64,000 nt of DNA, taken from NCBI RefSeq assembly GCF_000284375.1, contig NC_017249.1:372001-436000 (forward strand). Direction: 5' to 3'. Below, one piece after another: positions 5,085 through 26,334 of this stretch. The notes beneath the pieces were generated by a model. It searched no databases. It saw nothing but the letters and a program-made list of their open reading frames with translations, and was not told the DNA's origin. The first letter of the stretch is position 1. Each line of letters starts with the position of its first letter. Made by a program: the position numbers and the translations under genes. Source of the DNA: Bradyrhizobium japonicum USDA 6. Lineage in GTDB: Bacteria; Pseudomonadota; Alphaproteobacteria; Rhizobiales; Xanthobacteraceae.

Positions 5085-6352
5085 CGCTGGGCCCTCGGCA
5101 GCGCGCGATTGAGCGCGGTGGCAAATACGACGGCAACAATACCGGCCGCGGCAAGGAAGGCCGAGCGGCGCAGCAGCGAGCCCTTCACCGCCCAGGTGAT
5201 GCCCGCGATGACGCCGGCGATCCCGAGCCAGCCAGCGACGATCCGCGGACGCACATCATCGAGCACACCGGAGACGACGAGGCACAGCATGGCGGAGAGC
5301 AGCGCGGCATAGGCGAACCAGGGCTCGCCGGCCGTGGATGCCGGCCAGATCGGCGCCGCGACCAGGACGAGCCCGATCGAACATGCCGCAAGGATTTCAC
5401 CTGCACGCCTGGTGATGCCGGCGGACGCAAGCGCGAGGATCACGCCAGCGGCCCCGCACAGGATCGCCCAAAGCGGCTGGGCCGGCACCGTACTGTTCCG
5501 GAAGCGGATGATGTCGTCGACCGTTGTCACCTCCAGGCAAGCAACGGCCGCGAGCGAAAACGCTCCGTAGATCGATAAAACGGTCCCGAGACGCCGCGCC
5601 CGCGGCAACGGCGCAGCGGCGATGGCGAGTCCGGTGCCGAACAGCAAGGCGGCGCCGTTCGCGAGCACGAACGACGGCTGGGCACCATCGAGCTCGAAGC
5701 GGAGCGATGTCGCGATCCACCACGGAAGCAGCGCGACCGCGACGAGATGGGCCGCGACGCGGGAATTCCATGCCAACGCTAGCGCGGCGGCGATCAGCCA
5801 GACCGCCACGAACGGAAGATGCAGGACATCAGGGGCATCATGGCTGCGCATGCAGGTCCAGATGCAGGCCGCGACGAGGGCGACCGCAAGCGCGCCGCGC
5901 GATCCGGTCAGCAATGCGGCGGCAAATGCTCCGATCGACCACAGCAGCATGCCGCCGGCGAAGTCCTCGCCGAGATGATACATCTGGCCGACCAGCGCGA
6001 TGCCCGCGCCGAAGATGATCGCCCCGATGCTCGCGCAGAGATCGGCGAGAACCGTGCGGCCCGTCGCGGCGAACCACGCCCCGAGGCCGCCGGCGACGAC
6101 CATGCCGGCGACCAGAATCGCGAACCGCAGCAGCCGCGCGATCTCCGTCCAGTGCGCCGCGACGAAGGCGAGGAAGGCGGCTGCGATCAAGAGGCCGCCG
6201 ACGATGGCAACGACGACTGCGATGTTGATGCCGGGCGAGAGCGGCGGCAGCGCGCTGCGGATGGAGGTGGCCGCCGCCGGCGCGATCACGCCGTCGGCTT
6301 CCCATTGCGCAAGATCAGCCTCGAGGCGCTGCCGGTAGGTTTTGTCGAACAT
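5081..6352 (-). CDS. DUF2157 polytopic membrane protein
   Basis: About 423 residues. The start is taken as the ATG on the complement of 6350-6352 (MFDKTYRQRLEADLAQWEAD) with an AGGTG upstream; the open frame extends 24 codons further without a family match. A cytosolic N-terminal helix region (1-45) precedes about a dozen hydrophobic segments. The N-terminal pattern of a charged helix followed by a variable loop fits DUF2157. It forms a two-gene unit with the GDYXXLXY gene; no catalytic motif is visible and the role is unknown. Confidence 0.85.
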   Translation of the reverse strand: MFDKTYRQRLEADLAQWEADGVIAPAAATSIRSALPPLSPGINIAVVVAIVGGLLIAAAFLAFVAAHWTEIARLLRFAILVAGMVVAGGLGAWFAATGRTVLADLCASIGAIIFGAGIALVGQMYHLGEDFAGGMLLWSIGAFAAALLTGSRGALAVALVAACIWTCMRSHDAPDVLHLPFVAVWLIAAALALAWNSRVAAHLVAVALLPWWIATSLRFELDGAQPSFVLANGAALLFGTGLAIAAAPLPRARRLGTVLSIYGAFSLAAVACLEVTTVDDIIRFRNSTVPAQPLWAILCGAAGVILALASAGITRRAGEILAACSIGLVLVAAPIWPASTAGEPWFAYAALLSAMLCLVVSGVLDDVRPRIVAGWLGIAGVIAGITWAVKGSLLRRSAFLAAAGIVAVVFATALNRALPRAQR

Positions 6353-25051: not shown

Positions 25052-26197
25052 TTACTCCTTGTCGTTCTTGCCCTTTTTCTTCCCGTTCTCGGTAGATTCA
25101 CGGTCCTTTCCGTTACCTTCTTTGCCGTTACCTTCCTTGCGGCGGTTGGTGAAGCGGGCGTTGCCGAGCCCGGTGCCGATGGTCAGCACGCCCCAGCGAT
25201 CGACATCCTGCATGAACGGCACCTCGGAGAGGCCCTGAACCACGCCGTCATTGTGCATCAGGATCGCGGTGTCGTGCTCGCCGATCTCGGGGATGCCCTC
25301 GATCAGGCTCGCCGGCAGGTTGAACTTGCTGCTTTCCCAATTGCCCGGCAGGTTCTGCGCACCCTTCTCGATCGAGCCGTCCGCGTTGATCACGCCAGGA
25401 CAGGCGATGCCGATGAAGGGCGCGAGCTTGAAGCCGTCCTTCCCGGCCTCGGTGATCAGCCCCTTCAGCATCTTGGTGAGCCGCTTCACCGCGCCTTCGC
25501 GTGTCGGCTCGTCGTCGGCGTGACGCCACAGCTCCGACTTCACGACCTTGGCCTTCGAGAGGTCTTTTGCCTTCTTCCAGCTGGTTTCGACCAAGCCACA
25601 GCGGATGTTGGTGCCGCCGATATCGACCGCGAGAATGCTGTCATGGGCCTCGAAAATCCAGGATGGCGCCAGATGCAGCGTGCCGATCAGTCCGGCTTCA
25701 TCGGGATGGGCGCGGATCGGCACCAGGTCGATCTTGAAGTCCTCGGCCTTGAGGATGATCCCGGTGCGCGCGATCGCGAGCTCGCCTAGCCTTGAATCGC
25801 GGAAGCCGCCGCCAACGACGATGCGCTCGGTCTTGGCCCAGGCCTTGGTCTTGAGGAAGCGGCGGGTGACGTAAGCGAGCTTCTGGGCAAAGTCCTCGAT
25901 CGCGCTATGCACCACGGCCGACGCCTCGGTGTCGTCGCCGACCAGCATTTCGTCGAGGACTTTCTTGCTGATGTTTTCGGACGGCTCCTTGCCGAACGGG
26001 TCCTCGCCGCTCTTGCGCAGCGGCTTGCGCCAGCGGTCGAGGATCTCGCGGAACGCGCCCTTGCTGGCGCGATCGCCGAGAAAACCGTCCTCGTCCTTCA
26101 TCTCGATGTTGAAGCTGTCGATTTCGACCGACGGCAGCCGCGCCGCGCCGTGGGCGGCGATGCCCGTCGTCGTCTTGACCAGTTCGTCCGTTGCCAT
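25052..26197 (-). CDS. ROK-like sugar kinase with circularly permuted motif order
   Basis: 381 residues. The ROK/hexokinase-fold motifs are all recognisable but in rotated order. The adenosine motif IVVGGGFRDSRLGELAI is at 126-142 and the C-terminal DEAGLIGTLHL at 166-176. Only then come phosphate-1 VDIGGTNIR (191-199), ACPGVI (265-270), catalytic-type HND with D317, and phosphate-2 GTGLGNARF (341-349). In ordinary ROK kinases VDIGGT is at the N-terminus and IxGGG lies after GTG. The zinc motif HxxxxxxCxCGxxGC is absent. A low-complexity charged tail with EGNGK repeats ends the protein (354-381). It may phosphorylate a sugar or be an inactive relative; partners are unknown. Confidence 0.8.
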   Translation of the reverse strand: MATDELVKTTTGIAAHGAARLPSVEIDSFNIEMKDEDGFLGDRASKGAFREILDRWRKPLRKSGEDPFGKEPSENISKKVLDEMLVGDDTEASAVVHSAIEDFAQKLAYVTRRFLKTKAWAKTERIVVGGGFRDSRLGELAIARTGIILKAEDFKIDLVPIRAHPDEAGLIGTLHLAPSWIFEAHDSILAVDIGGTNIRCGLVETSWKKAKDLSKAKVVKSELWRHADDEPTREGAVKRLTKMLKGLITEAGKDGFKLAPFIGIACPGVINADGSIEKGAQNLPGNWESSKFNLPASLIEGIPEIGEHDTAILMHNDGVVQGLSEVPFMQDVDRWGVLTIGTGLGNARFTNRRKEGNGKEGNGKDRESTENGKKKGKNDKE

Positions 26198-26334
26198 GAA
26201 AGCCCTGCCCGGTTACCTGTTCCGGCGGGGACAACGGCGCGGGAACCCGTTGGTTGCAAACCGGGTGCAGATTCGCCGAAGGGCCGGGACGGATGCCAAA
26301 TCCTTCAAATCCGGGCTGTTTCCGGTGGTTTTCC

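Follow-up and report, generated by a model that had tools for sequence, protein, structure and literature searches.

Is the ROK-like protein encoded at positions 25052..26197 of the window (the whole stretch of 64,000 nucleotides of Bradyrhizobium japonicum USDA 6 DNA that was analysed) a circularly permuted kinase, and if so, what would it phosphorylate? An earlier note on this DNA had recognised the motifs of ROK kinases in rotated order and had read them as a circular permutation. We found the motifs as described, with GGG and DEAGLIG preceding DIGGTN, PG, HND and GTGLGN in one ORF of 381 aa (Table 1). The Pfam ROK model matched the USDA 6 protein above its cut-off (25.3 bits, cut-off 22.9), with an alignment that covered residues 189-352 only and profile positions 2-142 of 294; the N-terminal half of ROK is placed at the C-terminal end of this protein. 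Pfam ROK was also matched at E≤0.001 by 47/50 members of a family alignment (47-82% identity to the USDA 6 protein), and four further members for which the matched range is known hit the same half of the profile. Long antisense ORFs overlap the kinase gene (e.g. window 25253-25789, plus strand); such ORFs are common in DNA of ~63% GC.

Table 1. Window coordinates of the predicted kinase, its landmarks and its upstream motif; fractions refer to the 50-member family alignment.
Feature	Window position	Strand	Basis or remark
Predicted circularly permuted ROK-type kinase, whole gene	25052..26197	-	single uninterrupted ORF, 381 aa
N-terminal part, residues 1-183, counterpart of the canonical ROK C-terminal part	25649..26197	-	profile-profile match to ROK 201-299 of 331; model
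Adenosine motif GGG, residues 129-131	25805..25813	-	invariant 50/50
DEAGLIG segment, residues 166-172, resembling canonical ROK C-terminus	25682..25702	-	D166, L170, G172 invariant
C-terminal part, residues 184-356, counterpart of the canonical ROK N-terminal part	25130..25648	-	
Phosphate-1 motif DIGGTN, residues 192-197 (VDIGGTN 191-197)	25607..25624	-	D192, G194, G195, N197 invariant 50/50
Sugar-site loop PG, residues 267-268	25394..25399	-	invariant 50/50; role by analogy with ROK
HND, residues 315-317, D317 the expected catalytic base	25247..25255	-	invariant 50/50; role inferred from ROK kinases
Phosphate-2 motif GTGLGN, residues 341-346	25160..25177	-	invariant 50/50
K/N/G/E-rich low-complexity C-terminal tail, residues 353-381, variable	25055..25141	-	low model confidence
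EcfG-like promoter match GCAAC-N16-CGTT	26233..26257	-	one mismatch to consensus, 60 nt before start codon

In an hhalign comparison with a profile built from 39 canonical ROKs, the family profile in its native order aligned over 97 columns, in one half only (score 55.1), whereas after a cut at residue 184 and rotation it aligned over 281 columns, with a score of 93.5 and E = 1.9e-12 (hhalign E-values apply to one single comparison). Taken alone, the N-half profile matched the canonical range given in Table 1 with a score of 53.8, against 24.4 for the best decoy among 36 clusters of unrelated neighbouring ORFs, and the C-half profile matched ROK 4-148. In an earlier comparison with 19 ROKs, the score was 68.1 for the true rotation and did not exceed 58.2 at any of six other cut points; the N-half scored 45.4 and 60 column shuffles at most 22.1. 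The structure prediction that the earlier note had suggested as a check yielded a confident alignment-based model (pLDDT 90.8, pTM 0.86), whose structure matches include tandem-hexokinase ranges crossing the repeat junction; single-sequence folding of the same protein was useless (pLDDT 37.5). Together, the rotated profile and the model bear out the permutation that had been proposed, and we regard it as near certain that the protein is a circular permutation of a ROK-type kinase.

Other comparisons gave less. Rotated single sequences gained only 0.4 to 1.7 bits against Pfam ROK in 5/5 cases, with full-length coverage of the profile in 1/5, and HMMER found no ROK when PDB sequences were searched with the N-half profile. 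The last result, from HMMER alone, is what one would expect if an unrelated N-terminal domain had been fused to a truncated ROK N-lobe, a reading that we nevertheless consider extremely improbable, given that the profile-profile score of the N-half lies far above decoys and shuffles and in the complementary ROK range, that the ROK landmarks GGG and DxAGLIG occur in order within it, and that one confident model covers the protein. Against polyphosphate-glucokinase-like (PPGK-like) profiles the N-half had no match (score 24.9), and with these shorter proteins the true rotation (123.3) had no advantage over cut points 100 and 140 (123.5).

The cut falls between GTGLGN and the canonical segment that holds ExGH, the sugar-contact motif of ROK kinases, and CxCGxxGC, the zinc motif of the ROK family; both motifs are absent. 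ExGH is lacking in 50/50 family members and present in 18/19 canonical ROKs, and an ExGH-like motif occurs in 11/11 PPGK-like proteins. The zinc motif, whose absence had been noticed at the outset, was found in 0/50 family members, 16/19 canonical ROKs and 0/11 PPGK-like proteins. The break had been placed in a loop right after GTGLGN: it does lie near that motif, but about ten residues further on. Likewise, the extra low-complexity sequence described for both new ends holds for part of the family, a long K/N/G/E-rich C-terminal tail being typical of Bradyrhizobium copies, whereas most ORFs of the other families shown stop ~5-25 residues past GTGLGN..F. The N-terminus of the USDA 6 protein resembles that of the Bradyrhizobium copies shown. 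Several hexokinase alignments (VIA-align) begin at model residue 17 and at chain residues about 55-90, close to the LPTYV strand of the eukaryotic enzymes. In the new N-terminus the sequence is HGAxxLPSV (window 26123-26152, residues 16-25), and its likeness to LPTYV may be real or due to chance.

The rotated arrangement is a fixed property of the family. In 147/147 distinct ORFs containing DIGGTN-x-R and GTGLGN, a filter made of the family's own motifs that counts the permuted family only and not all ROKs, GGG preceded DIGGTN and GTGLGN came last. The complete order GGG, DIGGTN, HND, GTGLGN was found in 145/147; one exception (L092) fails the HND[GA]V pattern because its sequence there is HNDGL, and the other (L114) has an additional GGG match. 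A motif search of the 147 ORFs for tandem-duplicated intermediates found none with two copies. Nucleotide and catalytic residues are invariant in the 50 aligned members (Table 1), and T196 of DIGGTN is replaced by S in 16/50 and by R in 1/50. Between the USDA 6 gene and the best 80 of 232 relatives, dN/dS had a median of 0.15 and a maximum of 0.24, and nine more distant pairs gave 0.14 to 0.31. When a tree was built from the P1-P2 segment, the 17 family members included formed one clade (100/99) that joined 9 of the 11 PPGK-like proteins (98/100), a grouping that carries a long-branch warning; on this sequence comparison, the catalytic half of the permuted kinase appears closest to polyphosphate-glucokinase-like proteins. 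The permutation probably had a single origin, and selection maintains it.

The distribution of the family was assessed by a genome-contig scan, which reached close relatives only, by whole-genome searches within the phylum, and in PLSDB. The contig scan returned 232 relatives, and the best 80 of these, which were kept, are nearly all titled Bradyrhizobium. At E≤1e-5, whole-genome searches matched 61/397 genomes at order level, 16/385 at class level and 22/398 at phylum level, or 79 distinct genomes when these overlapping draws are pooled; they represent 21 family-level groups, of which one (f28) has fragments only and two lie outside the class. In PLSDB, 207/72,556 plasmid records carry the gene (Rhizobium 111, Sinorhizobium 79, Shinella 9, plus others). 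Among 60 of these records sampled evenly down the ranking, 33 call the product 'ROK family protein', 22 list no gene, 3 have 'hypothetical protein' and 2 are without annotation; one PLSDB record names it 'glucokinase'. The annotation, mostly 'ROK family protein', conceals the altered topology and the changed active site. No permuted ROK or hexokinase was described in the open-licence literature, as judged from titles and abstract openings among the matches listed, and viral contigs and phage records held no relative at the thresholds used. A published locus tag considered as a candidate family member, pRL100444, proved to be gmcA.

At least six genomes have partial or interrupted copies only, so that the gene is probably dispensable in some lineages; these copies are partial, internally deleted or stop-interrupted (L143 in G230, L144 in G387, L145 in G368, L146 in G227, L119 in G517 and L120 in G744). 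Two genomes of the genus Bradyrhizobium (G171 and G194) have two full copies each (L220-L223), L221 and L222 sharing neighbours with the USDA 6 gene and L220 and L223 sharing another neighbourhood. A record titled 'Frankia sp. RB7' (L021, JAUEPE010000043.1) contains a Bradyrhizobium-type copy, 89% identical, and is probably a misnamed or contaminated assembly.

What the permuted kinase would phosphorylate can be read from its residues and its surroundings. The residues PG, QN, W287 and ND of the sugar loops, shared with glucokinases, are retained in the family, and more members match the NCBIfam models for ROK glucokinase (36/50) and polyphosphate glucokinase (33/50) than that for beta-glucoside kinase BglK (29/50). 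The USDA 6 protein itself is far below the cut-off of all three (for NF045942, the polyphosphate glucokinase model, 22.7 bits, cut-off 250). From motifs and neighbours only, we infer a glucokinase activity (ATP + glucose to G6P).

A substrate other than glucose, be it a different hexose, a disaccharide (trehalose, for instance) or an amino sugar, is the less likely choice for a permuted kinase of the same fold, although several observations speak for it. ExGH is missing throughout, which leaves room for such a sugar, and the lowest single NCBIfam E-value in the family (8e-11) belongs to BglK. The new N-terminus contains a conserved block (H16, L21, P22, N30, E32, F39, G41, D42), with H16 in 49/50, N30 in 46/50 and E32 in 45/50 members, and W224 and R233 are invariant (50/50). 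These are candidate sugar-site residues, and a sugar site for another substrate could have been rebuilt by H16, N30, E32, F39 and GD 41-42 together with W224/H226/R233. Canonical glucokinase (PF02685) occurs alongside in 26/32 genomes with the permuted gene and in 15/22 without it; because of this coexistence, the permuted kinase as a replacement of Glk is not supported. Against a non-glucose substrate stand the retained glucokinase residues and the larger numbers of members matching the two glucokinase models, the USDA 6 protein remaining far below the cut-offs.

The upstream regions suggest when the gene would be expressed. GGAAC-N16/17-CGTT was taken as the consensus of the general stress sigma factor EcfG/RpoE2. 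In the loci outside Bradyrhizobium, the exact motif lies within 150 nt upstream in 15/50, versus 20/1500 random stretches from the same loci, and with at most one mismatch in 35/50, versus 74/1500; related loci count as separate rows in all these motif counts, which are therefore not independent events. The matches allowing one mismatch begin 40-80 nt before the start codon in 28/35 cases. For the Bradyrhizobium upstream regions the exact motif was found in 0/94 (random, 1/2820) and the motif with at most one mismatch in 72/94 (random, 101/2820), the matches shown reading GCAAC-N16-CGTT near -60, as in USDA 6. Named plasmid copies have the consensus exactly in 9/10 and within one mismatch in 10/10, at -61 to -78, and the three loci from outside the class (L151-L153) showed no motif within one mismatch in the 150 nt upstream. 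The conditions to which RpoE2 responds are starvation and heat, osmotic and oxidative stress (PMC3616915). The plasmid copy of Bradyrhizobium sp. 195 (L299; p195_2, 5098-6168) has an exact motif and lies among ferritin-like, SDR, PRC-barrel, DUF2934 and Hsp20 genes, surroundings that look like a stress island.

Such a promoter motif and such neighbours would also suit a non-catalytic or regulatory ROK-fold protein, a sugar sensor or stress regulator, all the more since many ROK proteins are regulators. We consider this improbable: the first conserved block begins after ~15 residues, which leaves no space for an N-terminal HTH, and the nucleotide and catalytic motifs do not vary in any of the 50 members.

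Gene neighbourhoods connect the permuted kinase with trehalose in part of the family. No neighbour cluster recurred in more than 10/41 loci, apart from the gene itself and overlapping ORFs. Exactly one trehalose-phosphatase (PF02358) match was present in 37/39 genomes examined, and in 5/37 (G152, G090, G281, G019 and G065, from three families) this sole otsB match lies <1 kb from the permuted gene; a rough estimate puts chance at ~0.02. GH15 trehalase-like and OtsA-type genes are clustered with the kinase in four loci (L186, L187, L192 and L200), and Pfam confirmed both in the two loci scanned, L186 and L187. Among ten selected named plasmid records, otsB is annotated as divergently adjacent in four (R. 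johnstonii 3841, R. etli IE4771, R. leguminosarum RCAM0610 and Shinella), CB782 has a haloacid dehalogenase in its place, and the other five have different neighbours. One of these five is S. meliloti pSymB, where the neighbour is an NAGGN-osmoprotectant peptidase. In the USDA 6 genome otsB lies ~106 kb away.

Taken together, the most probable reading is a ROK-type kinase that was permuted in nature, is linked to stress and would most likely phosphorylate glucose, or a closely related hexose that trehalose turnover yields or requires. Its chain would start in the loop that joins the second and third strands of the second RNase H-like subdomain, between GTGLGN and the lost ExGH/zinc segment, and would run through the nucleotide-binding GGG half before the phosphate-1, sugar and catalytic half. 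Folded in this way, it would rebuild the usual two-lobed active site, in which D192, G194, G195 and GTGLGN would hold the phosphates, GGG the base, and D317 would activate the sugar hydroxyl. In many alphaproteobacterial lineages the gene has an EcfG/RpoE2-type promoter motif, and its product would feed G6P to OtsA or recycle glucose from trehalose. Kinase activity, ATP or polyphosphate as donor, the sugar and sigma-factor control are the predicted properties of the enzyme. The linkage to otsB would also suit a trehalose kinase opposed by OtsB. A more far-reaching scenario, which we think unlikely, starts from a single ancient permutation by which a ROK/PPGK-like kinase lost its ExGH/zinc segment and had its sugar pocket rebuilt by a new N-terminal strand, yielding a stress-sigma-controlled kinase of new specificity, for instance a trehalose kinase opposing OtsB in a trehalose/trehalose-6-phosphate cycle.

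To the permutation originally proposed for this one ORF, the present analysis adds the family, the cut point, the probable relatives of the catalytic half and a regulatory setting. Catalytic folds that occur naturally in circularly permuted form put to the test which of their chain connections are required. That selection maintains a permuted family across many bacterial families indicates that the ROK/hexokinase lobe can be cut within the second RNase H-like unit and can do without ExGH. The family also suggests that an uncharacterised kinase step lies close to the rhizobial general stress and trehalose response.

Among known systems, bacterial Glk (PF02685) belongs to the same fold superfamily and perhaps catalyses the same reaction; it differs in its canonical order, and the USDA 6 protein matches it marginally (12.3 bits, cut-off 22.1). 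Eukaryotic hexokinases (PF00349), whose LGGTNFR the DIGGTN-x-R of the family resembles, align with the permuted model across the repeat junction in their tandem forms, but are not themselves permuted, and Hexokinase_1 is matched at E≤0.001 by only 3/50 family members. Closer are the polyphosphate/ATP glucokinase-like ROKs (the NF045942 neighbourhood; L261-L264, L291; Arthrobacter glucomannokinase 1woq), which differ in having canonical order, a length of 220-252 aa as cut out, a retained ExGH-like motif and a C-terminal part unmatched by the N-half profile of the permuted kinase. The class also contains a small PPGK-like group of canonical order (L231-L233, L261-L264), whose scores are far below the cut-off of NF045942. 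Finally, compared with the ROK hexokinases, fructokinases and NanK of PF00480 (human MNK 2yhw, Streptomyces griseus glucokinase 3vgk), also a close system, the permuted family has rotated order and neither ExGH nor CxCGxxGC, but shares with them the phosphate-1, catalytic ND, phosphate-2 and GGG motifs.
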